A stretch of 32,347 nt of DNA, from assembly GCA_025351485.1 (NCBI GenBank), contig JANXVU010000021.1, forward strand, positions 1-32,347, read 5' to 3'. This document shows, piece by piece, positions 2,056 through 21,181 of the stretch (position 1 is its first letter; each line of letters begins with the position of its first letter). This stretch comes from Candidatus Eiseniibacteriota bacterium (lineage in GTDB: Bacteria; Eisenbacteria; RBG-16-71-46; JACRLI01). The position numbers were made by a program, and so were the translations under genes. The notes under the pieces are model-generated. The model was not told the DNA's origin. It ran no database searches and worked only from the letters and a program-made list of their open reading frames with translations.

Positions 2056-4551
2056 ATGCTCGCCTCCGGCACCCGCCTCGGCCCCTACGAAATCCTATCC
2101 CCACTTGGCGCCGGCGGAATGGGCGAAGTGTACCGGGCCCGCGATACCCGCCTGGGCCGGGAAGTGGCCATCAAGACCCTTCCCGCGGCCTTTGCCCAGG
2201 ACCCGGAGCGCCGGGGCCGGTTCGAGACCGAGGCGCGCGCGGTGGCGGCGCTGTCCCACCCCAACGTCCTGGCCATCCATGACTTCGGCACCGAGGGCGG
2301 GATTTCCTACGCGGTCATGGAGCTGGTCGAGGGCCAGACGCTGCGCGAGAAGCTGATGGACGGGCCGATCGCCGGTCCCCGGGCCATGTCCCTGGCCATC
2401 CAGATCGCCCACGGCCTCGCGGCGGCGCACGACAAGGGCGTGATCCACCGCGACCTCAAGCCCGAAAACGTCATTCTCACTCCCGAGGGCCACGCCAAGA
2501 TCCTGGATTTCGGTCTGGCCAAGCGGGAGCCTGGGGCGGAGCCCGGTTCGCACAGCGTGGCGCCCACGCTGGCCGTGGCCACCGAGCCGGGCGCCGTGCT
2601 AGGCACGACCGGCTACATGGCTCCCGAGCAGGTTCGTGGTCTTCCGACGGACGCCCGCTCAGATATTTTCGCGCTGGGAGTGGTGATCTACGAGATGCTC
2701 TCGGGCCGCCGGCCCTTCCAGGGCGATTCACCCGCGGACACCATGAGCGCGATCCTCAGGGAAGACCCGGCGGAGCTGACGCAGCTCGTGCCCGACGTGC
2801 CGCCTGCGATGGAGCGGATCGTGCGGCGGTGCCTGGAAAAACAGCCCACGGGCCGGTTCCGCTCCGCGGCCGACCTGGCTTATGCGCTGGAGGCGATTTC
2901 ATCCGGATCGGGCACCTCCAGCTCGGGCAGCGCAGCGCTCGCCGCACTCACGACACGCCGTCCCCGGTTCAAGCGACTCTCGTACCGCAACGGGCTGGTT
3001 GCCGCTGCGCGCTTCGTGCCCAACGGGGGAGGAATCCTCTACGGCGCGTCCTGGGAAGGAAAGCCCTGCGAGATCTTTTCCGCGCATCCGGGCAGTCCCG
3101 AGGCGCGAAGCCTGGGCCTTCCACACGCCAATCTGCTGTCGATCTCCGCGACCGGAGAAATGGCGGTCTCGCTCGGCTATCGCCAATTCTTCTGGAACCA
3201 GGTCACGGGAACGCTGGCCCGAACGTCGCTGGGGGGCGGAGGAGTGCGCCCGGTGCAGAAGGATGTGGGACACGCAGACTGGGGGCCGGACGGCCGTGCC
3301 ATGGCGGTGGTGCGGTACCTGGAGGGCAGCTGTCGTCTCGAATACCCCTCGGGCGTTGTGCGGTGCGAAACCCTGGACTGGCTCAGCCGTCCCGGCGTGT
3401 CACCGGACGGCAGGCACGTCACATTCGCCCACCATCCGCGTTCCGGGGATAGTTCGGGAGCGCTTTGCGTGTGCGACACGGATGGAAACGTCAAGACCCT
3501 GTCCCCCGACATGACCAGCATCAGCGGAATCGAGTGGTCTCCGGCCGGCGATGAGGTGTGGTGCTCGGGAATCAACGCTGATCAACAGAACGGCATCTGG
3601 GGATTTCGCCTGGACGGGTCGCATCGCGAGGTCTACTCCTCGCCGGCCCGCGTTTCGCTCCACGATGTCGCCCGGGACGGCCGGGTGCTGATGAGCCTGG
3701 GAAACTTGCGACTGTGCCTTAGCGTGAGCCCGGCGGACGGCGCGCGTGAAGTGGATCTCTCGTGGTTCGACGGCGCGGTGGCCACGGACCTGTCCGCGGA
3801 TGGCCGACAGGTCCTGTTCTCCGAAGGTCACGAGGCGGAGAATCCCCACTACGCGGGCTTCCTGCGCGACGTGGACGGCTCGCCCGCCGTGCGCCTGGGA
3901 GACGGAACCACCACCCGCATTTCTCCGGACGGCCAGTGGGTCCTGGCCATCGTGTCCCGGCCCGATCCCGAGCTGTTCATGTATCCGACCGGAATGGGCG
4001 AGCCGCGCCGGATCCAGGTGGACGGGGTCGAGCGTATCCTGTGGGCCGGGTTCCATCCCGACGGCCGCCAACTCTTCGTGGTCGGCTCCACCGGAGGGCA
4101 GGCGATGCTCCCGTTTCTGGTCCCCGCATCGGGAGGGGCGGCCCGGCTGCTGTGGGGGGAACCCATCAAGTTCAACCGGCTCAACGGGCTGCCCATTTCG
4201 CCCGACGGTGATCGACTGGTCCTGCGCCGCGTGACCGGCGAACAAGTGATGTTTTCCTGCAGCACCGGCGCCGTGGAGCCGCTTCCCGCCCTGGGCGCCG
4301 ACGAGACCGCGGTTCGCTTCGATTCTTCAGGGCGCTTTCTGTTCGTGTCCGGACCCGAAGCCGGTAGCCGCGAGGTGTTTCGGATGGACCTCGAGACGGG
4401 GGAGCGGGAGCCGTGGCGCAGGCTCGAACCGCCCGATCGCACCGGCGTATTCTATGTTGGCGATCCGGTGATCAGCCTGGACGGCGCGTGCCTCGCCTAC
4501 AGTTTCTACCGGCACATCTCCGATCTGTACCTGGTCGAGGGCCTGGCATGA
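2056..4551 (+). CDS. Soluble Ser/Thr protein kinase with C-terminal WD40/PD40-like beta-propeller
   Basis: The 831-residue protein opens with a complete Hanks-type kinase domain (about 10-285): glycine loop GAGGMGEVY (18-26), Lys40, Glu59, HRDLKPEN with Asp133, DFG 151-153 and APE 189-191. All catalytic residues are present, so activity is expected. After a Ser/Gly-rich linker, residues from about 305 to 831 carry repeated SPDGR..-like turns (SPDGRHVTF, SADGRQVLF, SPDGQWVLA, HPDGRQLFV, SPDGDRLVL), typical of PD40/TolB-type propellers. I see no transmembrane helix between the domains, unlike classic PknB receptors, so it is probably cytoplasmic with the propeller as a sensor or scaffold. Start ATG 2056 has AGGA about 10 bases upstream. 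Substrate and signal are unknown. It lies upstream of the glucan locus, but no direct link is shown. Confidence 0.9.
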   Translation: MLASGTRLGPYEILSPLGAGGMGEVYRARDTRLGREVAIKTLPAAFAQDPERRGRFETEARAVAALSHPNVLAIHDFGTEGGISYAVMELVEGQTLREKLMDGPIAGPRAMSLAIQIAHGLAAAHDKGVIHRDLKPENVILTPEGHAKILDFGLAKREPGAEPGSHSVAPTLAVATEPGAVLGTTGYMAPEQVRGLPTDARSDIFALGVVIYEMLSGRRPFQGDSPADTMSAILREDPAELTQLVPDVPPAMERIVRRCLEKQPTGRFRSAADLAYALEAISSGSGTSSSGSAALAALTTRRPRFKRLSYRNGLVAAARFVPNGGGILYGASWEGKPCEIFSAHPGSPEARSLGLPHANLLSISATGEMAVSLGYRQFFWNQVTGTLARTSLGGGGVRPVQKDVGHADWGPDGRAMAVVRYLEGSCRLEYPSGVVRCETLDWLSRPGVSPDGRHVTFAHHPRSGDSSGALCVCDTDGNVKTLSPDMTSISGIEWSPAGDEVWCSGINADQQNGIWGFRLDGSHREVYSSPARVSLHDVARDGRVLMSLGNLRLCLSVSPADGAREVDLSWFDGAVATDLSADGRQVLFSEGHEAENPHYAGFLRDVDGSPAVRLGDGTTTRISPDGQWVLAIVSRPDPELFMYPTGMGEPRRIQVDGVERILWAGFHPDGRQLFVVGSTGGQAMLPFLVPASGGAARLLWGEPIKFNRLNGLPISPDGDRLVLRRVTGEQVMFSCSTGAVEPLPALGADETAVRFDSSGRFLFVSGPEAGSREVFRMDLETGEREPWRRLEPPDRTGVFYVGDPVISLDGACLAYSFYRHISDLYLVEGLA

Positions 4552-4639
4552 GCCTCACCTCCGGCACCCGGCCCGGTCCTTTGGAGTTCCTTTCCCTGAC
4601 GGGGATTTCGAACCGGTAGCGGCCTGGGCACGACACCGA

Positions 4640-5623
4640 TCAGGCCCGGATGGCCGCATCGAGCACGCGCTGGTTGGCAAGGCCGTTCTCACCGGTCAGC
4701 TCGAAGGCCGCTCCGGCGCGGATGGCCTCCACGAACTGCTCCACCTCCGCCACGTACAGATTGGGCACTTCAATCTCCTCGAACCTCGCCTCCAGCCGCT
4801 CTCCTCCCGCCCGGAGGCCGATTTCCAACTTCACGCTCACGCCTCCCCGCGTGAAGTCGAGCGCTGACAGGATGCCCTCCGTGCCGATCACTTCGATATA
4901 GGATCGCCGCACGGGGGATTCATAGGAGCACAGGATGGATGCGGTGGTGCCTTTTCCAAAGCGCAGCGCCAGCGCCGCGGTGCGCTCGGTCTGCCCGTTC
5001 GCCGGTAAGGGGTCCAGCTCCGCCCGCACGTCCACCGGCTCGTCATCCAGGAGAAAGCGGATGGTGTCCAGGCAGTGCACCCCGACGTCGAACACGGGTC
5101 CACCGCCGGCTACCCGGGCGTCGGTGAGCCAGGCGCGGTGGGACAGGCGACTGTCGTAGAGGAACTCCGAGCGGACATGGGTCACGCGCCCAATTTCCCC
5201 GCCGGCGATCAGGTTCTTCATCCGCCGCGCCACCGGAGAGAGCCGCACCATGTGGGCCACCATGAGGCGCACGTTCGCCTCGCGGCAGGCGGCGATCATC
5301 CGCTCCGCCTCGGCCACGTCGAGCGCCATGGGTTTTTCGACCAGGACGTGCTTGCCGTGGCGCGCAGCCAGGATGGCCTCCGGCGCGTGCGCGGAGTTCG
5401 CGGAGCAGATGAACACCGCGTCGATCTCGGGGCAGCGCAGCAGCGCCTCGACCGTGTCGAAGGAGTGCCTGACACCGTACTGGGAGGCGGCCTCCCGCGC
5501 CGCCTCCGATGAGCGCTTCTGCAGCGCCACCAGCTCCGCCCCCCGCGCCTGCTGGATGGCGGGCGCGATGGCGTGCCCGGCGAAGCGCCCAAAACCAAGG
5601 ATGCCGAAGCGGACTGGGGTCAT
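4640..5623 (-). CDS. Gfo/Idh/MocA-family NAD(P)-dependent oxidoreductase
   Basis: This 327-residue protein has the N-terminal Rossmann turn (GILGFGRFAG, residues 7-16), the family EKP motif (96-98) and the GGGPVFDVGVH segment with Asp179 and His183 expected at the active site. The family oxidises or reduces sugars, inositols and related polyols using NAD(P); the substrate cannot be read from sequence. The open frame extends upstream to 6010, but the start at 5623 is preferred: it has AGAGGA 4-5 bases upstream, begins directly at the Rossmann fold (MTPVRFGILG), and avoids running over the GH16 gene. It is divergent from the GH16 operon across a 208-bp gap, so it may process a sugar released by that pathway, but this is only positional inference. 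Confidence 0.9.
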   Translation of the reverse strand: MTPVRFGILGFGRFAGHAIAPAIQQARGAELVALQKRSSEAAREAASQYGVRHSFDTVEALLRCPEIDAVFICSANSAHAPEAILAARHGKHVLVEKPMALDVAEAERMIAACREANVRLMVAHMVRLSPVARRMKNLIAGGEIGRVTHVRSEFLYDSRLSHRAWLTDARVAGGGPVFDVGVHCLDTIRFLLDDEPVDVRAELDPLPANGQTERTAALALRFGKGTTASILCSYESPVRRSYIEVIGTEGILSALDFTRGGVSVKLEIGLRAGGERLEARFEEIEVPNLYVAEVEQFVEAIRAGAAFELTGENGLANQRVLDAAIRA

Positions 5624-5731
5624 GATGTCCTCTGGGAAGGCGCGAGTGACTGGGTGGGGCCGGGGGACTGCAGGGAGGTTACCACACGCTCGGGTGGCCG
5701 CCGGGAGCAGCCCCCGCGACAAGGGTTTGGC

Positions 5732-5773
5732 TTGCCCTGCGACCAGTTGGGGCTTAGTATTTGTAGAGAACAA
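5732..5773 (+). promoter_or_regulatory. Candidate promoter of the GH16-GH17-phosphorylase operon, with degenerate operator
   Basis: TTGCCC (5732-5737) and TAGTAT (5755-5760) are exactly 17 bp apart. TTGTAGAGAACAA follows at once (5761-5773), a shortened inverted repeat (TTGT/ACAA) ending in the same GAACAA half-site found in the palindromes at 14571-14589 and 28345-28363. Each element is imperfect (4 of 6 consensus bases in each box), so the call rests mainly on the matching arrangement with the two better promoters. Confidence 0.4.
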
Positions 5774-5831
5774 ACTGTCCTGGCTCAGCCGATCCGGGAC
5801 GTGCTTCGGACTTCGGACCTTGGAGCCTTGG

Positions 5832-7433
5832 ATGAAATCTAAGTTCATCTTCGCCATTTTAGTGGTTTTCGCGCTGGCCACGACCGTGGGATGGGGCCAT
5901 GCCGCGCAGTGCATGCTGGCAAATCCCAGTTTTGAGCATCCCGGCACCGGCGGGGCTATTTTTGCCGGCTGGAACCAGTTCGGGATTGTCGGCAGCTCGG
6001 CGACCGCCACTCACGGCAAGGTCTCCGCCAAGGTGTCCGGACCCAATTCCGGAGTCTGGGACGTGTCCGGCTACTGGCAGGCGCAGGACTGCGTCCCGGG
6101 CGAGCGCTGGAAGGCGACCGTGAAGGGTTGGCACACCGCGGTTCGTCCGCTTACCGGGGGATGCACGGCCCTCCTCAACATCGAGTGGCGCAACTCCGGT
6201 GGTGGGCTGATCTCCTACGAGTCCCACACGGTTGTGAGCGCTTCGACGCCGACCGGGCAGATCGTTTCCTACTCGGTGGTGAGCGGGGCAGCCCCGGCCG
6301 GGACCGTTTCCGCGCGCCTGCTGCTCGGGGCTTTGCAGAGCCCGACCGACCCGGTTCCGGACGTCTACTTCGACCAGGCCACCTTTGAAAGCCAGGGCCC
6401 GCCCACGCTGGCCAGCCTCCAATGGTCCGACTTTCCCGGAGGTCGCACCCTCGCCTTTGGCGGGTACACGTGGCGCGTGAAGGGGCCGGGCTACTTTGGG
6501 CCAGGACCGAACTTGTTCAAGGACGCTTCGACCAGCGCCTGGGTGGACACTTCCAGCCGGCTGCACCTGACGATCCAGAAGATTGCCGGCTCGTGGTACA
6601 GCACCGAGGTGGTGCTCGCGGATCCGCTTGGATACGGGGACTATCAATTCACCACCCGCGGGCGCCTCGACACTCTCGATCCCAACGCGGTGCTGGGCAT
6701 CTTCCTGTGGGAGTACGGCCCCTGTTATGACCCGGCGAACGGCTGGTGGGATCCTTATAACGAAATCGATGTCGAATTCAGCCGCTGGGGCGCGCCGGCG
6801 AACGCGAATGCGCAGTTCGTCTGCCAGCCGTACGACACTCCCGGGAACATCCACCGCTTCAACGCCACATTCAGCGACGGGGAAGTGACCACGCACGCTT
6901 TTCGCTGGCTTTTCGACCGGGTCGAATACCGGAGCTGGCGGGGCGGCCCGCTGGATGAACTGCCCGCGAACCTGATCCACTCCTGGACCTACTCCGGGGC
7001 CGACCTGCCCCGTCCGGACCAGCCCAGGGTGCACCTGAACCTGTGGCAGTTCAACGCCCCGCCGGCGGCAAACCAGGAAGCGGTCTTCGACCGGTTCACG
7101 TTTGTTCCCGCCGGATCGATCGTCGGGGTTCCGGGCGGCCCGCGCGCCGGCATCGCGGACGGCCAGCTTGGCGCGGCCTCGCCCAGCCCGTTCCGGGGCA
7201 ACACCTCCATAAGGTTTGCCCTGGCCCAGGAAGGCGCCGCGCAGATCGCGATCTTCGATCTGTCCGGGCGCCGCGTCCGCACCCTGGTGGACGGCGTGCT
7301 GGGCGCCGGAGAGCACCGCGCGACCTGGGATGGCCGCAGCGATTCCGGAGCGCGTGTCGCGTCCGCCGTGTACTTCTACCAGCTCCGGACCGGCAATTCC
7401 GTCGAAACAAGGCGCGTGATCCTGCTCAAATAG
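5832..7433 (+). CDS. Secreted GH16 beta-glucanase with N-terminal CBM-like domain and FlgD-like C-terminal domain
   Basis: The 533-residue protein has a signal peptide (about 1-25, ending GHA-AQC). A CBM4/9-like jelly roll follows (about 26-180; NPSFEHPG, GW..FG, YFDQATF), then a GH16 domain (about 195-430) with the active-site motif EIDVE: Glu311 nucleophile, Asp313, Glu315 acid/base. The last 90 residues (SPSPFRGNTSIRF, IFDLSGRRVRTL, G.H...WDGR, VYFYQL) form a FlgD-like domain seen in secreted proteins of FCB-type bacteria and annotated as a type IX-like sorting signal. GH16 members of this kind cut beta-1,3 or mixed-linkage glucans; the neighbours favour beta-1,3. The open frame runs back to 5250, but the ATG at 5832 with GGAG 9 bases upstream starts exactly at the signal peptide. 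It is first gene of a three-gene operon. Confidence 0.88.
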   Translation: MKSKFIFAILVVFALATTVGWGHAAQCMLANPSFEHPGTGGAIFAGWNQFGIVGSSATATHGKVSAKVSGPNSGVWDVSGYWQAQDCVPGERWKATVKGWHTAVRPLTGGCTALLNIEWRNSGGGLISYESHTVVSASTPTGQIVSYSVVSGAAPAGTVSARLLLGALQSPTDPVPDVYFDQATFESQGPPTLASLQWSDFPGGRTLAFGGYTWRVKGPGYFGPGPNLFKDASTSAWVDTSSRLHLTIQKIAGSWYSTEVVLADPLGYGDYQFTTRGRLDTLDPNAVLGIFLWEYGPCYDPANGWWDPYNEIDVEFSRWGAPANANAQFVCQPYDTPGNIHRFNATFSDGEVTTHAFRWLFDRVEYRSWRGGPLDELPANLIHSWTYSGADLPRPDQPRVHLNLWQFNAPPAANQEAVFDRFTFVPAGSIVGVPGGPRAGIADGQLGAASPSPFRGNTSIRFALAQEGAAQIAIFDLSGRRVRTLVDGVLGAGEHRATWDGRSDSGARVASAVYFYQLRTGNSVETRRVILLK

Positions 7434-7506
7434 AGCTTCCGGCGGGCCCCTGGAGGCTCCCGGCAGAACTCCCCACATCCACTTCTCCCAAGGGGGCGAT
7501 GGACCC

Positions 7507-8586
7507 ATGCGAGCCTTCCCCGCGATCCTGGGCGCCCTGGGCGCCTGCCTCGCCCTGTGCACTGCCGCCGGCGCCTTCGCCGCGGCCGGCGCCGCGAGCA
7601 ACACCACCGGTGGCGACCGGGGCCGGGCCTACGCGCGCCAGGAACCTTTCCAGAAGAGACCGTTTCCCATGCAATATGATGGAAGGTGGATCGGCGACGC
7701 CGTGGCCTATGGCCCGCACCGGGATGGGCAGCGTCCGAACGGCCCATCGCCCAGCGTGGCGGAGCTTCGGCAAGATCTGGATCTGATGGTGAAACGCTGG
7801 CACCTGCTGCGCCTTTACGGTTCCGCGGAGTACGCCGAGGACATCCTCATGGTGATACGTGCGGAACATCTCGACATGAAGGTCATGCTGGGCATCTCCC
7901 TGGCCGCGGAGGACCGCCGCGACTCGAGCGGCGCGGTGCTGGAGACCTTCGCCCGGACCAGGGAAGCAAACCGTCGCGAAGTGGAGGCCGGGCTGCGCCT
8001 GGCGGACGGCTTTCCGGAGATCGTGAAGGCGCTGTGCGTGGGGAATGAAACCCAGATCTTCTGGTCGGGGAACCGCGTGCCCACGGAGCGCCTTATCGAG
8101 ATCGTGCGCGAAGTCCGGGCCCGCTCCGGCGTGCCCATCACGGTCTCCGATGACTTCAACTACTGGAACAAACCGGAGAGCCGCGTGGTGGCGCGCGAGA
8201 TTGACTTCATCAGCAGCCACCACCATCCTCTCTGGAATGGCAGCCAGGTCCAGGACGCGATGGCCTGGGTCCGCAAGACCTTCTCGGATGTCCAGGCCGT
8301 GCACCCCGGAGATCTGGTCCTCATCTCCGAAACCGGATGGGCCACGCAGAGGCTCGACACGGGCGACCAGGGCAAGTACATGAAGGGCCGTGTCGGGGAG
8401 GACGAGCAGGCGGTATTCTGCGACTCCTTGGGCGCGTGGCTCCGGGTGTCGCGCGTGCCGACTTTCACGTTCGAGGCCTTCGACGAGAACTGGAAGGGCA
8501 GCGACCCGCCGGGCGAGGTCGAGAAGCACTGGGGACTCTACCGGGCGGACCGCACGCCCAAGAAGGCGCTGAGCGTTGGCAAGTGA
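7507..8586 (+). CDS. Secreted GH17 beta-1,3-glucanase-type glycoside hydrolase
   Basis: This 359-residue protein has a signal peptide of about 25-30 residues (MRAFPAILGALGACLALC...). The rest matches a GH17 TIM barrel: LRLYGS near the N-terminus, VGNE with acid/base Glu181, ISETGW with nucleophile Glu275, and the C-terminal FEAFDENWK..., KHWGLYR block. Clan GH-A places the two glutamates on strands 4 and 7, and a gap of 94 residues fits. Family members hydrolyse or transglycosylate beta-1,3-glucan. No CBM or sorting domain is attached, so it may be periplasmic or freely secreted. The start has AGGGGG about 10 bases upstream. It lies 73 bp after the GH16 gene and its stop overlaps the start of the phosphorylase gene. 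Confidence 0.9.
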   Translation: MRAFPAILGALGACLALCTAAGAFAAAGAASNTTGGDRGRAYARQEPFQKRPFPMQYDGRWIGDAVAYGPHRDGQRPNGPSPSVAELRQDLDLMVKRWHLLRLYGSAEYAEDILMVIRAEHLDMKVMLGISLAAEDRRDSSGAVLETFARTREANRREVEAGLRLADGFPEIVKALCVGNETQIFWSGNRVPTERLIEIVREVRARSGVPITVSDDFNYWNKPESRVVAREIDFISSHHHPLWNGSQVQDAMAWVRKTFSDVQAVHPGDLVLISETGWATQRLDTGDQGKYMKGRVGEDEQAVFCDSLGAWLRVSRVPTFTFEAFDENWKGSDPPGEVEKHWGLYRADRTPKKALSVGK

Positions 8587-11500
8587 CACCGTAAGGCGGT
8601 CCGTCCCGACTGGCGGTTTCAGCACGCTGGACGGAGAAGCCTACTACCGCATTTCCGCCTGCGACGGGATGAGGCCCTTCCTCATCAACCTGGCGAGTGA
8701 TTCCGACCTGTGGATGTTCGTCACCTCGGTAGGCGGGCTGACCGCCGGCCGGGTGGATGCGGAGGGAAGCCTCTTTCCCTACGAGACCGTGGACCGGCTC
8801 TACGACGCCGGCGCGCATACCGGGCCGGTCACCTTGATCCGCTGGACCCGCGGGACCGGGCACGAGCAGTCCTGGGAGCCGCTCTCCGCGCGCTCCCCCG
8901 AGACCTCCGGGATCGAGAGAAATCTCTACAAGAACCCCCTCGGAAACCGCCTGGTCTTCGAGGAACTCCATCACTCCGCCGGGCTGGCATTCCGGTACCG
9001 ATGGGCCGCCGCCGATCCGCTCGGATGGGTTCGGACCGCGACCCTGTCCAACCTGGGCCATGGCCCGGTGCGGATCTCCTTGCTCGACGGCCTCCGCAAC
9101 GTGTTGCCTTTCGGGGTCCCGCTGGCCGTCTATCAGCAGGCGAGCTGCCTGGCCGACGCCTACAAGCGATCCGAGCTGGATTCCCTCTCCCGGCTGGCCA
9201 TCTTTTCCCTGACCTCCAGGATCATCGACCGTCCGGAGGCGGCCGAGGTGCTGCGCGCCAACACGGTCTGGTGCCACGGGCTACCGGATTTCGAGGTCAG
9301 CCTCTCGCCCGACGCGGTCGATGCCTTCCGTGCCGGCGAACCGCTTCCCTCGGGGCACACGCTGACCGGGCGGCGGGGGAACTACCTGGCGTCTTCAGCG
9401 TTCACGCTGCAGGCCGGGGCCCGCGCGAAGTGGCAGATGGTCGCCGACTCCGGCCGCAGCCAGGGCGATGCGGCCTCGCTGCGGGCCCGCCTGCTGGAGG
9501 CCCACGATCTCGACGGACAGATTGAAGACAGCCTTGCCGGCGCCTCCGGGAACCTGCTTCGCAACGTGGCCAGCGCCGACGGACTTCAGCTTTCCGGCGA
9601 TGCCGAGGCGGACGCCCACCATCTCGCCAACGTGCTGTTCAACAACATGCGCGGCGGGGTGTTCGATCGGAACTACGATCTTCCGGTGCGGGATTTCGCG
9701 GACTTCCTGAACACGCGCAACCGTGAGGTCGCCGCCCGCCACCGGGCGCGGATCCAGGCGCTGCCGGAGCGGGTCCCGGCCGCGAAACTGCACGAGGTGG
9801 CCGCCGCCACCGGGGATGCCGATCTCGAGCGGCTGTGCCACGAGTACCTTCCGCTGTACTTCGGGCGGCGGCACGGCGACCCGAGCCGCCCGTGGAACAA
9901 GTTCGCGATCCGGCTACGGAACCCGGACGGCAGCCGGTCCCTGAGCTACGAGGGCAATTGGCGGGATGTATTCCAGAACTGGGAGGCGCTGAGCCTGAGC
10001 TTCCCGGGTTTCCTGCCCAACATCATCGCCAAGTTCGTGAATGCCTCGACCGTCGACGGGTTCAACCCGTATCGAATCACCCGGGACGCGACCGAGTGGG
10101 AAGTGCCCGAGGAAGGGGACCCCTGGAGCAACATCGGATACTGGGGCGACCACCAGATCATCTACCTGCTCAAGTTCCTGGAATCGCTGCGCGATCACGA
10201 TCCGCGGGCGCTGGCCGGGCTGCTGGATCGCCGGATCTTTTCCTACGCCGACGTTCCCTACCGCCTGAAACCCTACCGGGAAATGCTGGCGGATCCCCAC
10301 TCCACGATCCACTACGACCGCAATTTGGAATCCAGGATCGCCGAGCGGGTGGCGGCATTGGGCACGGACGGCAAGCTGGTTCCGGCGCGAGGCGGCTCGG
10401 TCCACCACGCCAACCTCTTGGAGAAGCTGCTGGTCCCGGCGCTTTCGAAGCTCTCGAACCTGGTGCCCGACGGCGGCATCTGGATGAACACCCAGAGGCC
10501 CGAGTGGAACGACGCCAACAACGCGCTGGTGGGCCATGGCATTTCCATGGTTACCCTGTGCCATTTGCGGCGCTACCTCGCCTTCCTCGCCGGGATCCTG
10601 GGCGAGAAGGAAGGCGGGCCGGTCCCGGTATCCGTCGAGGTGGTGCGCTGGGCCCGACAGGTGCGAGAGATCCTGGAACGGAGCCGGCCGCTGCTGGCTT
10701 CGGCCGGGCTCGGGGACGGCGATCGGCGGATGGTGCTGGATGAGCTGGGCGAGGCTTATTCCGCCTATCGCGCCCAGGTCTACCGGTCCGGTTTCAGCGG
10801 ATCCGAAGACATGCCGGCAGGCGAGATCACGTCGCTGTGCGCCGTGGCGCTCGAGCACCTGGACCACGCCATGCGCGCCAACCGGCGCGAGGACGGCCTG
10901 TACGACTCCTACAATCTCCTGGATGTGTCCGGGGAACCGGGCACGGCTGCCGTTCGTCCACTCTACGAAATGCTGGAAGGCCAGGTCGCCGCGCTGGGCT
11001 CCGGGCTGGTGCCGGCCACCGAGGCGGTCCGGCTCCTGGATGCCCTGTTTGAAAGCCGCATGTACCGGGCCGATCAGCGCAGCTTTCTGCTGTACCCGGA
11101 GCGCACCCTTCCGGGATTCCTGGACAAGAACGTCATCCCCGCGGACCGGGTCCAGGCGGTTCCGTTGCTCCGGGACCTGTTGCAGGCGGGGGAGAAGTCC
11201 ATATTGGAGCATGATGCGGCCGGGCACTTCCGCTTCCACGCCGACTTCGGGAATTCAGGAGACCTGGAAAGAGCGCTGGACCGGCTGGCCGCGGGGCCGC
11301 ATGCGAGCCGCGCCGGCCGGGACCGGGGCGCCGTGCTTGAATTGTTCGAGGACGTGTTCCGGCACCGGGAGTTCACCGGCCGCTCCGGCGCGATGTACGG
11401 CTACGAGGGACTGGGCTGCATCTACTGGCACATGGTGACCAAGCTGCTCCTGGCGGTGCAGGAGACGGCCCTTCGCGCCATCCGCGAGGATGGGCCCGAG

Positions 11501-12046
11501 CCGGTCAGCCGGGCGCTGGTCGCACACTATTACCGGATCCGCGCGGGACTTGGTTTTGAAAAGTCGCCCGCGGAGTACGGCGCCTTTCCCTGCGATCCCT
11601 ACTCGCACACTCCGGCCCAGGGGGGCGCGCAGCAGCCGGGCATGACCGGCCAGGTGAAGGAAGAGATCCTGGCACGCTTCGGAGAGCTGGGAGCAGGGCT
11701 GAAGGATGGAATCGTGAGGTTCCGCCCGGAGATCCTGAGAAGGAACGAGTTCCGCAGATCGGTCGGCGCCTACCGGCACTTCGACGTGCACGGCGCGCCC
11801 GGGAATCTCGAGGTTCCGGCGGGTGGCCTGGCTTTCAGCTACTGCCAGGTGCCCGTCCTCTACGAGATCAGCCCGGGAAATGCCTGGATCCGTGTGGTGA
11901 CGGCCGGAGGCGAGCCCACGCGCCGCGAAGGCGACGCGTTGGACCCGGACCAGAGCCGCTCGCTGCTGGGCCGGACGGGAGCGATCGCCCGCATCGAGGT
12001 GGGAATTCCGGCCGCCTCGCTCTCACGCTTCGAATCCCGCTCATAG
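8576..12046 (+). CDS. Cytoplasmic beta-1,3-glucan phosphorylase, probably GH149 (GH94-like fold)
   Basis: The 1156-residue protein lacks a signal peptide. It starts at TTG 8576, 11 bases inside the GH17 gene, with AGAAGG about 10 bases upstream; no better start lies near. An N-terminal beta-sandwich (GGFSTLDGEAYYRI, TSVGGLTAGR.DAEGSLFPYETVDRLYD) precedes a helical toroid containing RPEWNDANNALVGHG. Asp646 in that WND motif lines up with the DWND catalytic Asp of GH94 cellobiose phosphorylase. Length and layout fit GH149 beta-1,3-oligoglucan phosphorylases better than GH94 (about 800 residues); GH161, another beta-1,3-glucan phosphorylase family, is the main alternative. The expected reaction is phosphorolysis of beta-1,3-oligoglucosides to glucose 1-phosphate, inside the cell after import. 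The family assignment is from recollection of motifs and architecture, without a search. Confidence 0.75.
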   Translation: MASDTVRRSVPTGGFSTLDGEAYYRISACDGMRPFLINLASDSDLWMFVTSVGGLTAGRVDAEGSLFPYETVDRLYDAGAHTGPVTLIRWTRGTGHEQSWEPLSARSPETSGIERNLYKNPLGNRLVFEELHHSAGLAFRYRWAAADPLGWVRTATLSNLGHGPVRISLLDGLRNVLPFGVPLAVYQQASCLADAYKRSELDSLSRLAIFSLTSRIIDRPEAAEVLRANTVWCHGLPDFEVSLSPDAVDAFRAGEPLPSGHTLTGRRGNYLASSAFTLQAGARAKWQMVADSGRSQGDAASLRARLLEAHDLDGQIEDSLAGASGNLLRNVASADGLQLSGDAEADAHHLANVLFNNMRGGVFDRNYDLPVRDFADFLNTRNREVAARHRARIQALPERVPAAKLHEVAAATGDADLERLCHEYLPLYFGRRHGDPSRPWNKFAIRLRNPDGSRSLSYEGNWRDVFQNWEALSLSFPGFLPNIIAKFVNASTVDGFNPYRITRDATEWEVPEEGDPWSNIGYWGDHQIIYLLKFLESLRDHDPRALAGLLDRRIFSYADVPYRLKPYREMLADPHSTIHYDRNLESRIAERVAALGTDGKLVPARGGSVHHANLLEKLLVPALSKLSNLVPDGGIWMNTQRPEWNDANNALVGHGISMVTLCHLRRYLAFLAGILGEKEGGPVPVSVEVVRWARQVREILERSRPLLASAGLGDGDRRMVLDELGEAYSAYRAQVYRSGFSGSEDMPAGEITSLCAVALEHLDHAMRANRREDGLYDSYNLLDVSGEPGTAAVRPLYEMLEGQVAALGSGLVPATEAVRLLDALFESRMYRADQRSFLLYPERTLPGFLDKNVIPADRVQAVPLLRDLLQAGEKSILEHDAAGHFRFHADFGNSGDLERALDRLAAGPHASRAGRDRGAVLELFEDVFRHREFTGRSGAMYGYEGLGCIYWHMVTKLLLAVQETALRAIREDGPEPVSRALVAHYYRIRAGLGFEKSPAEYGAFPCDPYSHTPAQGGAQQPGMTGQVKEEILARFGELGAGLKDGIVRFRPEILRRNEFRRSVGAYRHFDVHGAPGNLEVPAGGLAFSYCQVPVLYEISPGNAWIRVVTAGGEPTRREGDALDPDQSRSLLGRTGAIARIEVGIPAASLSRFESRS

Positions 12047-12119: not shown

Positions 12120-13553
12120 CTAGTGGAGGCGCATCATCTTCCTGGAGATCATCCCGGTGGACGTCTTCAGCGAGTACTGGTAGAGACCCGCGGGCGCCAC
12201 GGCACCGTTGGAGGACCGGCCGTCCCACGTCACGTGGTGCGGCCCGGCGGAGAACTCGCCCCTGGCCAGCGTGGCCACCCTGCGCCCCACCGCGTCAAAG
12301 ATGCTCAGTTCCACGGCATCGCCGCGGCCCAGGACAAAGTCGATCCTGGTGGAAGGCTTGAAGGGATTGGGCGTGTTCTGCCGCAGCTCGAACGCCAGGT
12401 TCCTGGGGCCGTCGCCGACGCCCACCGGCACGTACTCGCGCAGCGAGGCGTCGTCCACGAAGGCCGATCCGCCGAGGTTGTTCGGTGAAATGAACTGGAT
12501 GTAGGCCCGCATCGAGTCCGTCCCGGCCGGGGCGGTGGCGATCACGGTGTGCTTGGTCCAGTTGCCCAGCGGCGAGGCTCCGTTGAGGATCACCGTGTCC
12601 TTGGTGGCTCCGGCGATCTCGGCGCCGGCAACGTCCCGGAAAACCAGGCTGGCCTGCATGAAGTCGTCGTTCGCGCCGGTGACGGCGTCGTTCCCCTGGC
12701 AGGTCGTCAGCGAATACACGTCGAACTGCCACTTCTTGCCGGGAATCGTCTTCAAGGTCTGGTACATGCCGGAATTGGCGAGGGTCACGAAGGTCGAGAA
12801 GAGCTTGGCGCAGCCGCCGGCGGAGCGCACGTAAATGTGGTTCGTTTCCAGGAAGACATTTCCGAAGGTCAACCAGCCGGTGGTGAGCGGCGAGGAGAAG
12901 TTCCCGTTGACCAGCGAATTGGCGGCCGAGGCGGGAGTGGCCGTGTCGAACGACAGATCGTCCACGAACACCGCGCCCGGGTCGCACGCGGGCTGCAGGT
13001 ACAGGATCAGGGCCTCGACCCTCTTGGCGCCCGCGGGGGCCGGGGCGACGACGCTGAAGGCGTTCCACACATTCGTCGCCGTGTTTCCGTCACCGATCAC
13101 GTATTCGTTCGACGAAAGCTCGTTTCCGCCGGCGAGGGCGTCGAAGAACACCACCTTGGCAAGGGCCCGGTTCTTGGTGCAGGTGGTCGTGCCCAGCAGG
13201 GGGTCGGCGGCGCCGACGTAGGAATAGCCCGAAAAAGTGTAGAGATTCCCAACCGTGGGATTGGTGAACGCCTGCCCGTAGCCTCCGACGTTGAACACCG
13301 GAGAACTCGGACAACCGTTGAACCCGCCGTAGATCTTGGAGGCGGCGAAGCCGGTGCGCACGATGTTGTCGGTGCTGCCCACGGTGTCGATCTTCACGCC
13401 GCTTCCAAACGTGAACCAGCCGGCGTACGAACCGGCGCCGGACTCAAACCCGGGATTCGTGAGCAGGTTGGCCGCCGCCGTAGGCCGCGCGTGGGCTGCG
13501 AGGAGTGCCAGGAGCGCCAGGAAGATCCAGTTTCTGCAGGGAAGGCGGTTCAT
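12120..13553 (-). CDS. Secreted protein with two CBM4/9-like domains and a FlgD-like C-terminal domain
   Basis: The 477-residue protein has a signal peptide (MNRLPCRNWIFLALLALLAAHARPTAAA) and two jelly-roll-like domains: about 28-200 (NLLTNPGFESG, GW.TFG, VFVDDLSFD) and about 205-370 (NSLVNGNFSSP, GWLTFGN, AFVDDASL). It ends in a FlgD-like sorting domain (NTPNPFKPSTRIDF, IFDAVGRRVATL, HHVTWDGRSSNG, YQYSLKT). No catalytic motif is visible, so it is probably a surface glycan-binding protein; the ligand is inferred from the neighbourhood. The domains resemble those of the next gene and of the GH16 at 5832. The open frame reaches back to 13802, but AGGAGG 7 bases before the ATG at 13553 and the signal peptide decide the start. 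It lies 218 bp downstream of the paralog at 13772. Confidence 0.85.
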   Translation of the reverse strand: MNRLPCRNWIFLALLALLAAHARPTAAANLLTNPGFESGAGSYAGWFTFGSGVKIDTVGSTDNIVRTGFAASKIYGGFNGCPSSPVFNVGGYGQAFTNPTVGNLYTFSGYSYVGAADPLLGTTTCTKNRALAKVVFFDALAGGNELSSNEYVIGDGNTATNVWNAFSVVAPAPAGAKRVEALILYLQPACDPGAVFVDDLSFDTATPASAANSLVNGNFSSPLTTGWLTFGNVFLETNHIYVRSAGGCAKLFSTFVTLANSGMYQTLKTIPGKKWQFDVYSLTTCQGNDAVTGANDDFMQASLVFRDVAGAEIAGATKDTVILNGASPLGNWTKHTVIATAPAGTDSMRAYIQFISPNNLGGSAFVDDASLREYVPVGVGDGPRNLAFELRQNTPNPFKPSTRIDFVLGRGDAVELSIFDAVGRRVATLARGEFSAGPHHVTWDGRSSNGAVAPAGLYQYSLKTSTGMISRKMMRLH

Positions 13554-13771: not shown

Positions 13772-14425
13772 CTAGCGGTAGAGCTTCTTGATGTTGCCCC
13801 ACGTGCTGGTCCGGACCGGCGTCGCGCTCTCCTTGGACAGGGAGACGTTGTCGATCTGGACCGCGCCGCCGTCGTTACCGGGAGCGAGATACAGCAGGAA
13901 CGCCCACACGGTGGTGGTGGTCGGGGGAGCCGTGAGCGTCACCGGAGCGTTGTTGAACCACGTGTCGACCGGGGAGTCGCCGTCCAGGATGACGGACTCG
14001 TTGGACGCGATGTCGTTCACGCCGTCGGCCCGGAAGATCAGCTTCTGGACCACCCAGTTGCCGTTGCCGCCCTTGGGGAGGCTAAGGCCGCGGATCGGGT
14101 CATCGGCGCAGTGGCGCGACTTGCATGAGAGCATCCAGACTTCGCCCGGAGCGGCGGGGTAGCTCTGGAAGGTGCCGCTCACGCTGAAGCCGCCGGCGAA
14201 GCCGCCGAACATCTTGTTCACGTTGTTGCCCGCGTAGGGCACGATGCACGGAGGGTTGCTTGCCTCGATGTACGAATTGCCGAATGCGGTCCAGGAGCTG
14301 AATCCGGCTTCAAACCCCGGGTTCGTCAGGACATTCTGGGCCTGCGCACTCGTGGAGCTGGCCGCGAGGAACAGGAGGAACATGCCTGTGCCGGTTGCAC
14401 GCAGTAGCAGTTTTTTCATAAGCAT
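13772..14425 (-). CDS. Secreted single CBM4/9-like domain protein with unusual short C-terminus
   Basis: This 217-residue protein starts at 14425 (GGAGG six bases upstream; a second ATG lies two codons in). A signal peptide (MLMKKLLLRATGTGMFLLFLAASSTSAQA) is followed by one jelly-roll-like domain (NVLTNPGFEAGFSSWTAFGN to VQIDNVSLSK). It is clearly related to the first domain of the protein at 12120: compare SNESVILDGDSPVDTWF with SNEYVIGDGNTATNVWN. The protein stops at TSTWGNIKKLYR, where its relative has a FlgD-like domain. The aromatic, basic tail may be an anchor or sorting tag; that is speculation. It is probably a glycan-binding protein, secreted. The ABC/GH1 operon promoter starts about 120 bp away on the opposite strand, so the palindrome at 14572 could also act on this gene. 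Confidence 0.82.
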   Translation of the reverse strand: MLMKKLLLRATGTGMFLLFLAASSTSAQAQNVLTNPGFEAGFSSWTAFGNSYIEASNPPCIVPYAGNNVNKMFGGFAGGFSVSGTFQSYPAAPGEVWMLSCKSRHCADDPIRGLSLPKGGNGNWVVQKLIFRADGVNDIASNESVILDGDSPVDTWFNNAPVTLTAPPTTTTVWAFLLYLAPGNDGGAVQIDNVSLSKESATPVRTSTWGNIKKLYR

Positions 14426-14543: not shown

Positions 14544-14588
14544 TTGACAGGTGTGCTATAAGGCTACACAATGTTCGGCAAGCGAACA
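14544..14588 (+). promoter_or_regulatory. Promoter with palindromic operator for the ABC ATPase-GH1-fusion operon
   Basis: Consensus -35 TTGACA (14544-14549) is followed after 17 bp by CACAAT (14567-14572). A perfect inverted repeat TGTTCG-N5-CGAACA (14572-14588) overlaps the -10 end and the expected start site, a classic repressor position. Widened by one base at each end, the element (14571-14589) shares the form TGTTC-N7-GAACA with the palindrome at 28345-28363. The likely binder is the ROK repressor encoded at 25590-26843, which is inference from proximity and site type. Confidence 0.65.
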
Positions 14589-14619
14589 ATCTCTTTTATT
14601 AGAAACAGGGAGAAATTTT

Positions 14620-15687
14620 TTGCCGCCTGAGACGAGCGCTGCTCCGACCCGCCTGCTGGACGTCCGTGGTATCCGGAAGGTCTACGCGTCGGGTGGTTTC
14701 CTGGCCCCCACCCGCAGAGTGGTCGCGGCCGAGGGCGTGTCCTTTGGCCTGGACCGGGGCGAAGCAGTGGCCCTGGTGGGGGAATCCGGGAGCGGTAAAA
14801 GCACGCTGGCACGCATCTTACTGCGGTTGGAGCCCCCCGATGCCGGGCAGATCCTGCTGGATGGCGAGGACGTGCTGGCCCGGGAGCCCCGGAGGGCCTC
14901 CCTGGGATACCGCGGGCGGGTCCAGATGGTTTTCCAGGACCCGTTTGGCTCGCTGAACCCGGTCCACACCGTGGCCCACCACCTGGTTCGTCCGCTCCTG
15001 CGACACGGCAAAGGCCTGAACCCCGCCAAGGACGTCGGAGCCCATCTGGCCGGCCCGCTGGTGCTCCATCAGCGCGCCACACCCCAGAGTGTTCGGGCCC
15101 GTGCCCTCGACCTGCTCCGCACCGTCGGGCTGGAGCCGGCCGAGGACTTCATTGATCGCCACCCGTACGAACTTTCGGGGGGCCAGCGGCAGCGCGTGGC
15201 CATCGCCCGGGCGCTGGCGGTGGACCCCGACCTGCTGGTGGCCGACGAGCCCACCTCGATGCTGGATGTGTCCATCCGCATGGGAGTGCTGAATCTGTTG
15301 TTGCAGCTCAAGAAGGAGCGCCGGCTTGGAATCCTGTTGATCACCCACGACCTGGCCTCGGCCCGCTACCTGGCCGACCGGATCCTGGTCCTGTACCGGG
15401 GGCGGGTGGTGGAGGACGGGCCCAGCGCGGCCGTCGTGGAATCGCCTGCCCATCCCTATACCCGCGCCCTGCTGGCCTCGATCGCCGATTCGAGCCCGAG
15501 GCATGCGGGTGGCGGAAAGCCCGTGGAGTCCCACGCGGATTCCACGGAGGTGGCTTGCCCGTTTGCGGCCCGTTGTCCCAATGTGCATGACGTTTGCCTG
15601 AAAATCGACCCGCAGCCCCGTGAGTTCGATGGCCGGACCGTGCGCTGCCACCTTTACCCGGAGGGCGCGCCATCGCCCCGGAGCTGA
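14620..15687 (+). CDS. ABC importer ATPase, OppF/DppF type (oligosaccharide uptake)
   Basis: The protein has 355 residues from a TTG start at 14620, chosen because AGGGAG lies 7 bases upstream and because the longer frame would begin inside the promoter. Walker A GESGSGKST (about 54-62), signature LSGGQRQR, Walker B LLVADEP and a switch His (ITHD) are all intact. The C-terminal extension holds the cysteine cluster CPFAARC.......C...C typical of the oligopeptide/dipeptide branch. In this branch OppF pairs with an OppD; here the OppD-like partner is encoded at 20222-21181 in the converging operon. Branch members also import beta-glucan oligosaccharides, as in Thermotoga, and the neighbours support that here. 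It is the first gene of a tight operon: the GH1 gene starts 5 bases after its stop. Confidence 0.9.
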   Translation: MPPETSAAPTRLLDVRGIRKVYASGGFLAPTRRVVAAEGVSFGLDRGEAVALVGESGSGKSTLARILLRLEPPDAGQILLDGEDVLAREPRRASLGYRGRVQMVFQDPFGSLNPVHTVAHHLVRPLLRHGKGLNPAKDVGAHLAGPLVLHQRATPQSVRARALDLLRTVGLEPAEDFIDRHPYELSGGQRQRVAIARALAVDPDLLVADEPTSMLDVSIRMGVLNLLLQLKKERRLGILLITHDLASARYLADRILVLYRGRVVEDGPSAAVVESPAHPYTRALLASIADSSPRHAGGGKPVESHADSTEVACPFAARCPNVHDVCLKIDPQPREFDGRTVRCHLYPEGAPSPRS

Positions 15688-15692
15688 TTCCA

Positions 15693-17084
15693 ATGGACAA
15701 GCAGGAGTTTCCGAAGGGCTTCCTGTGGGGGGTCGCCACTTCCGCGCAGCAGATCGAAGGGGCGGCCCGCGAAGGGAGCCGGGGCGAGTCCATCTGGGAC
15801 CGGTTTGCACGGACCCCGGGAAGGATCTCCGACGGCTCGAATCCGGGGGTGGCCTGCGATCACTTCCACCGGTGGGAAGAGGACATCGCGCTGCTGCGCC
15901 GGCTCGGGGTGCAGGCTTACCGATTTTCCGTCGCTTGGCCCCGCGTGGTGCCGGACGGCGGGGGGGCCGTGAACGAGCGTGGCCTGGACTTCTATGATTC
16001 GCTCGTGGACGGGCTCCTTGCGGCCGGCATCCAGCCCTTTGTGACCCTGTACCACTGGGACCTTCCGCAGGCGCTCCAGGACCAGGGCGGATGGGGAAAC
16101 CGCAAGACCGCCGAAGATTTCGTGGGCTTCGCGGCGGCCGTGTCCCGGCGCCTGGGAGACCGGGTTCGCTCCTGGGCCACCCACAACGAGCCCTGGTGCA
16201 TCGCGACCCTGGGACACGAGCAGGGGGAGCACGCCCCCGGGCACAGGGATCCGGCCGAATCGCTGCGCGTGGCGCACCACCTGCTGGTTTCCCACGGCTG
16301 GGCCGCCGGGGTCATCCGCGAAAGCTCGCCCGGCTCCGAAGTCGGGATCGTGCTCAATCTCACGCCCGCTTTTCCCGCCTCGGACGCTCCGTCGGACGCC
16401 GATGCGGTCCGGCACTTCGACGGCGCCTTCAACCGCTGGTACCTGGATCCGCTCTTTCGCGGGGAGTATCCTGCCGACGCGGTGGCGGACCGGGTTCGGC
16501 GAGGCCACCTTCCGGCGGGGGAGCTGCCCTTCGTGCGGGAGGGGGACATGAAGTCCATCGCGACTCCGCTCGACTTCCTCGGAATCAATTACTATAGCCG
16601 GGTCGTGGTTCAATCGAGCGGGACGGGCGAGCCGGTGGCCGTGGCGGTTGCCCCAAAGGAGCAGCTCACCGACATGGGTTGGGAGGTCTACCCCCAGGCG
16701 CTCGAGGATCTCCTGATGCGGGTGACGCGCGAGTACCGGCCCCGCAAGATCTTCATCACCGAGAACGGGGCGGCGTACACGGACACCATGGCCGCCTCGG
16801 GGATCATCGCCGACACGCGCCGGGTGGCGTACCTGAGGAACCACCTCGCCTCCGCCCATCGCGCGCTGGAGGCCGGGGCGCCGCTGGCCGGCTACTTCGT
16901 GTGGTCGCTGCTGGACAAGTTCGAGTGGGCCCACGGCTACACCAAGCGATTCGGGCTCTACAACGTGGATTTCAGCACGCAGCGCCGGACTCCGAGGGAC
17001 AGTGCATATTGGTACCGCGACGTCGTCGCCGCCAACGCGGTCGACGCCGGCGCTCCGCAATCCGCCATGGGGAGGAATCCGTGA
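15693..17084 (+). CDS. GH1 beta-glucosidase
   Basis: This 463-residue enzyme has no signal peptide, so it acts in the cytoplasm. GH1 hallmarks are complete: FPKGFLWGVATSAQQIEGA at the N-terminus, FRSVAWPR-like YRFSVAWPRV, THNEPW with acid/base Glu166, the ITENGAAY nucleophile Glu357, and the C-terminal GYFVWSLLDKFEWAHGY..RFGL block that forms the glucose-binding site. It should remove terminal glucose from short imported beta-glucosides, complementing the phosphorylase, which conserves the bond energy as glucose 1-phosphate. GGAG lies 9 bases upstream of the ATG. The gene overlaps the next one by 4 bases (GTGA), so translation is probably coupled. Confidence 0.95.
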   Translation: MDKQEFPKGFLWGVATSAQQIEGAAREGSRGESIWDRFARTPGRISDGSNPGVACDHFHRWEEDIALLRRLGVQAYRFSVAWPRVVPDGGGAVNERGLDFYDSLVDGLLAAGIQPFVTLYHWDLPQALQDQGGWGNRKTAEDFVGFAAAVSRRLGDRVRSWATHNEPWCIATLGHEQGEHAPGHRDPAESLRVAHHLLVSHGWAAGVIRESSPGSEVGIVLNLTPAFPASDAPSDADAVRHFDGAFNRWYLDPLFRGEYPADAVADRVRRGHLPAGELPFVREGDMKSIATPLDFLGINYYSRVVVQSSGTGEPVAVAVAPKEQLTDMGWEVYPQALEDLLMRVTREYRPRKIFITENGAAYTDTMAASGIIADTRRVAYLRNHLASAHRALEAGAPLAGYFVWSLLDKFEWAHGYTKRFGLYNVDFSTQRRTPRDSAYWYRDVVAANAVDAGAPQSAMGRNP

Positions 17085-20221: not shown

Positions 20222-21181
20222 CTACTTCGCCAGGTGGCAGGCGGCGGAGTGGCCGGGCCCGATCTGTTTCAGTTCGGGGGACACCTTGCTGCAGAGTTCC
20301 ACCGCCACCGGGCAGCGGGGGTGGAAGCGGCAACCCGCGGGCGGGTTCCGGAGGCTGGGCGGAGTGCCCGGGATGCTGAACATTTCCACGGTGGAGCCGT
20401 GCACGGAGGGGAACGCCCGCAGCAGGCCCTGCGTGTAGGGATGGCGCGGGGAAGTCCGGAGTTCCTCGGCGGGCCCGATTTCCGCCATCCGGCCGGCGTA
20501 GAACACCGCCACCCGGTCCGAGAACTGCAGCATTCGGGCCAGGTCGTGGGTGATGAAGATCACCGCGAACCCCAGCTTGCGCTGCAGGCCCCGGATTTCT
20601 TCCAGGATTTCCCGCTCCACGATGACGTCCAGCGCCGTGGTCGGCTCGTCCAGGATGAGCAGGGTCGGCTCCAGGGCCAGCGCGATGGCGATTCCCACCC
20701 TCTGCCGCATGCCCCCGGATAGCTGGTGGGCGTAGGCGTCCAGCCGATCGCCTGGAATCCCCACCATTTCCAGCAGCTCCGCCGCCCGGTCCCGGGCCGC
20801 GCGCGCGCTCATGTCACCGTGCGCGTGCATGGTGTCGGTAATCTGCTCGCCGATTGTGATCACCGGGTTCAGGGCGTCCATGGCGCTCTGGAACACCATG
20901 GACATGCGGCTCCAGCGAAGCTTGCGCAACTCTTCCTCGTCCAGCGTGAGGATGTCGCGCCCCTCGAAGATCGCTTCTCCGCCCGTGATCACGGCTGGAG
21001 GCGGAAGGATCCGCATGATTCCCTGGGCCAGGGTCGACTTGCCGCTCCCCGATTCGCCGGCGACCCCCAGGAACTCGCCCCGCTCCAGGTCCAGCGACAC
21101 ATGGTCGATGGCGCGCACCGGGCCCCGGTCGGTGATGTAGTCGATGCACATCCCGCGAACGCTCAGCAGCGGCTCAGCCAC
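20222..21181 (-). CDS. ABC importer ATPase, OppD/DppD type
   Basis: The 319-residue ATPase has Walker A GESGSGKST (42-50), signature LSGGMRQR, Walker B LLILDEPT and ITHD. The long helical insert before the signature (VFQSAMDALNPVITIGEQI) and the C-terminal cysteine cluster CRFHPRCP....C...C are typical of OppD/DppD. It starts with GTG at 21181, overlapping the end of the upstream permease gene by 8 bases. It is last in the minus-strand operon and should form the nucleotide-binding heterodimer with the OppF-type ATPase at 14620, which is encoded in the opposite operon. Confidence 0.92.
   Translation of the reverse strand: MAEPLLSVRGMCIDYITDRGPVRAIDHVSLDLERGEFLGVAGESGSGKSTLAQGIMRILPPPAVITGGEAIFEGRDILTLDEEELRKLRWSRMSMVFQSAMDALNPVITIGEQITDTMHAHGDMSARAARDRAAELLEMVGIPGDRLDAYAHQLSGGMRQRVGIAIALALEPTLLILDEPTTALDVIVEREILEEIRGLQRKLGFAVIFITHDLARMLQFSDRVAVFYAGRMAEIGPAEELRTSPRHPYTQGLLRAFPSVHGSTVEMFSIPGTPPSLRNPPAGCRFHPRCPVAVELCSKVSPELKQIGPGHSAACHLAK

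Follow-up and report, generated by a model that had tools for sequence, protein, structure and literature searches.

A GH149 phosphorylase gene and its operon

The DNA analyzed here, referred to as the window, is a stretch of 32,347 nucleotides from Candidatus Eiseniibacteriota bacterium (contig JANXVU010000021.1, assembly GCA_025351485.1). Its main gene of interest lies on the plus strand at 8576-12046, starts with TTG and encodes a protein of 1156 amino acids (aa). A first-pass annotation, made from the letters alone, had described this protein as a phosphorylase resembling glycoside hydrolase (GH) family GH149, and comparison with hidden Markov models and PDB chains placed it in GH149 rather than GH94 or GH161. 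The curated NCBIfam equivalog model for GH149, NF058639, matched residues 12-1144 with 1467.7 bits, well over its cut-off of 1150, a score that excludes a chance match. Residues 14-1147 aligned to residues 42-1172 of the GH149 enzyme Pro_7066 (PDB 6hq6) with 1075.7 bits. This alignment forms one unbroken stretch and, at the sequence level, covers a complete GH149 protein with both of the extra domains that interrupt the catalytic one. GH161 was rejected, as GH161 chains matched the protein in three pieces with about 34 bits, compared to 1075.7 for GH149. GH94 (PF17167) was likewise rejected: no Pfam family was found for the protein at E 0.01, while the GH149 equivalog cut-off was passed. The GH94 model does match two genes on other contigs of this genome (G000:C83:16168-17442 and G000:C7:61-882; L001 and L002), one of them in a 1507-aa frame.

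The catalytic WND motif, in which Asp646 had been named as the catalytic residue, was found at exactly W644-N645-D646, with Asp646 as the acid. Further active-site residues are R463 and D464, which make up the RD donor motif, E944 and H952. In Pro_7066, the active-site residues are W651, N652, D653, R470, D471, H959 and E951 (PMC6771811), corresponding to a constant shift of seven. All seven residues were identical in 90 of 90 GH149 loci. On inspection, no hydrophobic signal-like stretch was seen at the N-terminus, in agreement with the earlier claim that the phosphorylase lacks a signal peptide, and the protein is predicted to be a cytoplasmic 1,3-beta-glucan phosphorylase. It is encoded by the sole GH149 gene found in the 3.44-Mb genome, and its nearest named matches include metagenome-assembled genomes (MAGs) of Krumholzibacteriota and 'Effluviviaceae', at 59%. 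GH149 was also seen on contigs from MAGs labelled Halobacteria, Acidimicrobiia, Chloroflexi and Steroidobacteraceae (L036, L034, L084 and L022, respectively); these contigs are short and possibly misbinned.

Two genes precede that of the phosphorylase on the same strand. The nearer one (7507-8586) encodes a GH17 protein with a signal-peptide-like N-terminus (PF00332, 36.2 bits, cut-off 28.2), predicted to be an endo-beta-1,3-glucanase or a glucanosyltransferase. Its best PDB matches were 6fcg, a GH17 protein (E 1.7e-18), and 4wtp, a beta-1,3-glucanosyltransferase (E 1.1e-10). The first gene (5832-7433) ends 73 bp before the GH17 start, and the GH17 stop at 8586 overlaps the phosphorylase start at 8576. 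The overlap, the short gap and the shared strand fit a single operon. By its sequence, the phosphorylase is an unremarkable GH149 member, assigned with confidence, and its operon makes sense. The first-pass annotation had placed the gene in an operon with secreted GH16 and GH17 enzymes; the GH17 part stands, as this protein appears to be secreted and co-transcribed, but for the product of the first gene a GH16 identity is no more than possible.

The 5832-7433 product looks secreted from its N-terminus and from a C-terminal domain of the FlgD_ig/Por_Secre_tail type (FlgD_ig, 33.1 bits). When ten members of its family were scanned with Pfam, FlgD_ig was found in 10/10 and Por_Secre_tail in 6/10, and GH16 in 0/10. 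A GH16-like EIDVE motif is present, of which E311, D313 and E315 are invariant. Alignment of the family profile to real GH16 profiles with hhalign gave a probability of 1.7% and E 0.03, with the EIDVE/EID motif in register; with the single sequence, the probability was 0.2%. A PDB profile search returned mainly FlgD- and secretion-type matches, with the best glucanase at E 0.76. The protein may thus be a distant GH16 member.

A probable beta-1,3-glucan utilization cluster

The neighborhood of the phosphorylase is a beta-1,3-glucan utilization cluster, comprising, in addition to GH17, an Opp-type ATP-binding cassette (ABC) importer, a GH1 enzyme, a GH16 lipoprotein and a ROK-family regulator. 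On the plus strand, an OppF-type ABC ATPase (14551-15687; ABC_tran 119.5 bits, oligo_HPY 45.2 bits, PRK11308 293.6 bits) is followed after 5 bp by a GH1 beta-glucosidase (15693-17084; PF00232, 543.8 bits) and, after a further 23 bp, by a gene at 17108-20203 whose product, referred to below as the partner protein, is described in the following section. On the minus strand are an OppD-type ABC ATPase (20222-21181; PRK09473, 290.8 bits), an OppC-type permease (21174-22109), an OppB-type permease (22106-23089; NF045470, 222.1 bits) and a substrate-binding protein of the Opp family (23099-24730, start uncertain) that falls in its oligosaccharide-binding branch. OppB, OppD and OppF were thus recognized by model, and OppC by its position and by a homologue that is flanked by OppB and OppD in L025 and L103. 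The nearest matches of the binding protein were Vibrio chitin-oligosaccharide-binding proteins (E 2e-81 to 6e-79); it matched the Thermotoga proteins 4jsd and 2o7i at E about 1e-51 and was far from dipeptide binders.

The same strand carries a laminarinase-like GH16 lipoprotein with a lipobox-like N-terminus (24769-25593; PF00722, 77 bits) and a ROK-family transcriptional regulator (25590-26843), for which NagC/Mlc-type models gave 195.7 and 162.6 bits, under their equivalog cut-offs. The last gene of this group encodes a lipoprotein with a Big_2-like domain (26892-28265; 21.0 bits, just under the cut-off of 22.8), likely a surface glycan-binding protein. A homologue lies directly 3' of the partner gene in many Bacteroidota GH149 loci, and a match was found in 28 of the 90 loci.

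The presence of a GH1 enzyme alongside the phosphorylase, which had also been claimed, was confirmed by the TIGR03356 model (613.8 bits, cut-off 478.5); no signal peptide was seen in it by inspection. A division of labor by chain length between the two enzymes is plausible by analogy, with a published parallel in the pairing of GH161 with GH1 (PMC6484121). Both GH149 and GH1 occur in L025, and the fetched stretches of L103 and L110 contained no GH1.

Two secreted minus-strand proteins lie between the phosphorylase and the OppF gene, one with a C-terminal FlgD_ig domain (12120-13553; PF13860, 45.6 bits) and a shorter one (13772-14419) with homologues in L104, L109 and L110. Both recur beside GH149 in relatives, the former adjoining it. 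Ser/Thr-kinase-like genes at 2056-4551 and 29496-31490 flank the cluster and have homologues near GH149 in L106 and L108.

The partner protein has a GH158-like domain and a predicted outer-membrane barrel

The partner protein has 1031 aa, with a signal-peptide-like start, a TIM barrel at about residues 35-440 and a C-terminal part at about 441-1031. The TIM domain matched part of the Pfam GH2 catalytic profile PF02836 with 24.9 bits (cut-off 21), and the Pfam scan found no GH2 N-terminal sandwich domain. When a 25-sequence profile of the protein was compared with the PDB, the endo-laminarinase BuGH158 came first (E 4.3e-7). With the TIM domain only, the E values were 7.5e-10 for BuGH158, 4.7e-7 for GH158(Pro) and 7.5e-5 for the best GH2 protein; these are distant matches. 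The AlphaFold2 model of the whole protein had a mean predicted local distance difference test score (pLDDT) of 75.2 and a predicted template modeling score (pTM) of 0.52. Foldseek ranked GH157 and GH158 beta-1,3-glucanases first, and VIA-align ranked GH158(Pro) first (9oro, Z 28.6, root-mean-square deviation (rmsd) 3.0, 290 residues aligned). GH2 glucuronidases followed at Z 27.8, within one Z unit, and structure alone therefore does not settle the family. Residues N179, E180 and E280 were invariant in 25/25 sequences and, in the printed profile alignments, N179-E180 and E280 line up with the GNE and TEWG motifs of BuGH158. The BuGH158 mutants N136A, E137A and E220A are dead (PMC7157763).

The whole-model VIA-align list was taken up by the TIM domain, and residues 441-1031 were therefore folded separately; absence from the fold lists was not counted as evidence. 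The model of this part had a mean pLDDT of 72.5, a pTM of 0.73 and 22 predicted strands of at least eight residues. The 50 best Foldseek rows were all outer-membrane barrels, including BtuB, MOMP, OmpT porin, LptD, AlgE, OprD-type channels, ScrY and other TonB receptors. The VIA-align list likewise consisted of membrane barrels only, mitochondrial VDAC and TOM barrels included, with pilus ushers first (7lhh, Z 14.1, rmsd 5.3, 370 residues aligned), which reflects a shared arrangement and not kinship. Polar and apolar residues alternate along the predicted strands with a score of 2.47, compared to 1.41 +/- 0.21 for shuffled sequences (reached in 0/2000 shuffles), and the strands of the TIM domain lack this alternation. 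The C-terminal residue is F in two of 25 sequences, both gammaproteobacterial, and K, R, N, L or M in the others, including M in the window protein. No TonB plug was found in the protein by a Pfam scan at E 5, nor among the frames of the window. These models predict that residues from about 441 to 1031 form an outer-membrane beta-barrel.

What the barrel does can be read in more than one way. It could merely anchor or export the glucanase in an autotransporter-like manner, with oligosaccharides entering through a TonB receptor encoded elsewhere, a reading to which we give somewhat less than an even chance. Autotransporters have their passenger or enzyme at the N-terminus and their barrel at the C-terminus, as is the order here, and 11 TonB plug matches are found elsewhere in the genome, any of which could import glucan. 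However, with about 590 residues and 22 predicted strands, the barrel exceeds the 12-strand autotransporter unit and is comparable in size to the TonB receptors and pilus ushers that lead its fold matches. The presence of susCD is held to be characteristic of variant-1 laminarin loci (PMC10108472), and a TonB receptor or SusD was encoded within the stretch in 4/27 loci with the two-part protein. The lack of a nearby receptor in the other 23/27 might seem to argue against such a route, but it does not discriminate, as the same is true for 43/53 loci without the fusion. Indeed, the idea that the fusion replaces TonB receptors, examined as an anti-correlation in 80 loci, gained no support, since there was no contrast between loci with the fusion (4/27) and the others (10/53). 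Many of these 80 stretches are clipped by contig ends; among the 49 loci of at least 18 kb, the counts were 4/24 with and 6/25 without the fusion.

Alternatively, the partner protein may be a glucanase-channel, in which a GH158-like endo-beta-1,3-glucanase at the mouth of a wide, plugless barrel of the 22-24-strand class would cut glucan during TonB-free passage and feed GH149. We consider this a tentative idea and rather doubtful. In barrels built by the beta-barrel assembly machinery, an N-terminal domain ahead of an even-stranded barrel as a rule stays periplasmic. The glucanase domain may therefore sit below the pore, on the periplasmic side, whereas a position on the cell surface would need autotransporter-like export. 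Both the conduction of sugar by the barrel and the membrane side of the enzyme are inferred.

It is unlikely that the C-terminal 590 residues are instead a soluble, beta-rich carbohydrate-binding region. Such a region would be compatible with the moderate AlphaFold2 confidence and the non-aromatic C-terminal M, but not readily with fold matches made up of membrane barrels, with a strand alternation confined to this part of the protein, or with the F that ends the two gammaproteobacterial members.

Distribution of the partner gene and its linkage to GH149

Among ten GH149 stretches from related genomes (L102-L111), several of which stop at contig ends, tblastn with the window proteins found the partner gene in seven, GH1 in seven, OppF in seven and GH17 in five, and a 5832-type gene with at least 54% identity in seven. 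In relatives, GH149 is repeatedly accompanied by these five genes. The order OppF, GH1, partner gene was kept in L102, L104, L107 and L108.

Counting in 99 relatives gave 13 genomes with both GH149 and the partner, one with GH149 only, two with the partner only and 83 with neither, so that 13 of 14 GH149-bearing relatives also had the partner. G098 was not counted as GH149-bearing here, since its match reached only 50 bits, in fragments, and fell far short of the cut-off; G015 and G036 were kept, although their matches were below the cut-off and at contig ends. A second count used 199 genomes from the family of Gaetbulibacter, the Flavobacteriaceae. Here, 42 genomes had both genes, 29 had GH149 only, two had the partner only and 126 had neither; three of those counted as partner-bearing (G154, G281 and G304) matched the TIM part only. 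GH149 was accordingly present in 42 of the 44 genomes holding the partner. In 39 of these 42 genomes, the two genes share a contig and lie 186 to 17,972 bp apart; in three they are on different contigs. Fisher tests, which ignore kinship, gave 2.3e-13 for the 99 relatives and 1.8e-21 for the 199 Flavobacteriaceae. By these counts, a genome with the partner almost always has GH149 too, whereas the reverse holds only in the lineage of the window.

Over the 90 loci, a match to the partner protein was found in 43, extending into the barrel in 27 of 80 from named genomes and in seven of the ten relatives; L060 and L069 matched at only 23-25%, and L035 and L056 are clipped by contig ends. The 27 two-part forms come from Bacteroidota, Krumholzibacteriota and gammaproteobacterial records. 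Seven of the 80 named loci (L041, L058, L059, L068, L077, L089 and L097) have a TIM-only form of 415-443 aa beside GH149, with 46-53% identity. The barrel has been lost or gained within the partner family. In the Flavobacteriales bacterium ALC-1 (L074:4436-7533), the partner gene lies in two frames, reflecting a frameshift or a sequencing error. Open reading frame (ORF) calls are unreliable in GC-rich loci, and loci with more than 58% GC were excluded from ORF clustering.

Comparison with known systems

The window phosphorylase resembles Pro_7066 (PDB 6HQ6/6HQ8) and EgP1 in its full-length alignment, its active-site residues and the apparent lack of a signal peptide. In contrast to these enzymes, it belongs to a lineage that is neither Bacteroidota nor a well-sampled group of proteobacteria.

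The five-gene Opp-type ABC cassette next to GH149 is shared with the Type I GH149 clusters of Proteobacteria (PMC5827456). The ABC type, COG0747/0601/1173/0444/4608, is described for both these clusters and laminarin use in Thermotoga (PMC5827456). As described in that paper, Type I clusters have LacI or AraC regulators and are without a secreted laminarinase and an outer-membrane transporter. The window, by contrast, has a ROK regulator, GH17 and GH16 proteins with signal-peptide or lipoprotein N-termini, and a predicted barrel; an importer of the Type I kind is thus found here together with glucanases that are secreted.

Likeness to the variant-1 laminarin loci of Bacteroidota (PMC10108472, PMC10877868) and to a Muricauda polysaccharide utilization locus (PMC13188888) lies in the presence of GH149, GH16, GH17 and one additional GH, labelled GH0, GH158 or GH2. 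Specifically, GH158 is listed in a variant-1-type locus (PMC10877868), and in Muricauda a 'GH2 beta-glycosidase' lies beside GH16 and GH149 (PMC13188888). Partner homologues adjoin GH149 in Bacteroidota loci that share this gene order; in L094 (Gaetbulibacter saemankumensis, partner gene at 4502-7630) and L098, genes for a Big_2-type lipoprotein, a GH16-type lipoprotein and GH149 come after the partner gene, with a major facilitator superfamily (MFS) transporter further on. This gene order suggests that the published GH0, GH2 and GH158 genes are probably one family, that of the partner protein. In the portions of the three papers considered here, the barrel is not mentioned. Variant-1 loci differ from the window in their inner-membrane step, which uses an MFS transporter, often fused to GH17, rather than an Opp-type ABC importer and GH1. 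The cluster described here is a variant with features of both Type I clusters and variant-1 loci.

BuGH158 (PDB 6PAL) and GH158(Pro) (9ORO) are the best profile matches of the TIM domain, and the latter is also its top structural match, with the catalytic N-E and E residues kept. Identity is about 21%, and BuGH158 has a C-terminal Ig-like domain (PMC7157763) where the partner protein has a large barrel. A published precedent for coupling transport to cleavage when laminarin is used is the MFS-GH17 fusion of Formosa (PMC6246565), which combines a transporter and a beta-1,3-glucanase, but that fusion belongs to the inner membrane, whereas the one in the window is predicted for the outer membrane. 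No fusion of a glycosidase to a barrel was found in a literature search covering Creative Commons-licensed PMC papers.

Proposed pathway

From the sequence evidence, we propose that the GH149 phosphorylase is the intracellular end of a laminarin-type utilization cluster, splitting imported beta-1,3-gluco-oligosaccharides with phosphate, and we put the probability of this reading at roughly 0.87. Outside the cell, the secreted GH17 enzyme, the GH16 lipoprotein and possibly the 5832-7433 product would cut the glucan. The fragments would then pass the outer membrane, for which the barrel of the partner protein is a possible route, and the GH158-like domain of this protein would trim them at one mouth of the pore. 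At the inner membrane, the Opp-type ABC importer and its oligosaccharide-branch binding protein would carry them into the cytoplasm. There, GH149 would use inorganic phosphate to release glucose 1-phosphate and a shortened chain, and GH1 could hydrolyze the short remains. Glucose 1-phosphate could be passed on by phosphoglucomutase-family enzymes, for which the genome has two PGM_PMM_I (PGM/PMM-family) genes. Judging by its position, the ROK protein probably regulates the cluster.

Some observations weigh against this proposal. The GH17 protein belongs to a branch that also resembles glucanosyltransferases. The ABC genes are split over both strands in two groups, which makes co-regulation of the whole set an assumption. 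Finally, with the TonB plug matches elsewhere in the genome, the barrel need not be the route of the glucan. It is nevertheless very improbable that the enzyme acts mainly in synthesis or on an internal beta-glucan: GH149 reactions are reversible (PMC5827456), but the gene is surrounded by secreted glucanases, an importer and a surface-type lipoprotein, and no glucan synthase was recognized in the window by family scans that covered part of its genes.

Laminarin is among the most abundant marine algal sugars, and of the bacterial sugar loci active in blooms, those with GH149 rank with the most highly expressed (PMC10108472). The phosphorylase adds one further lineage to the known GH149 family. 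More notable is the partner protein, an unexpected feature of the cluster in which an enzyme is apparently joined to an outer-membrane barrel, and which raises the question of the route that beta-1,3-glucan takes across the outer membrane where a cluster has no SusCD. If the glucanase-channel is real, it would parallel the MFS-GH17 fusion at the outer membrane, would be common to Bacteroidota, Gammaproteobacteria and the window's lineage, and would account for 'GH0', a strongly expressed gene without family assignment in marine laminarin loci.

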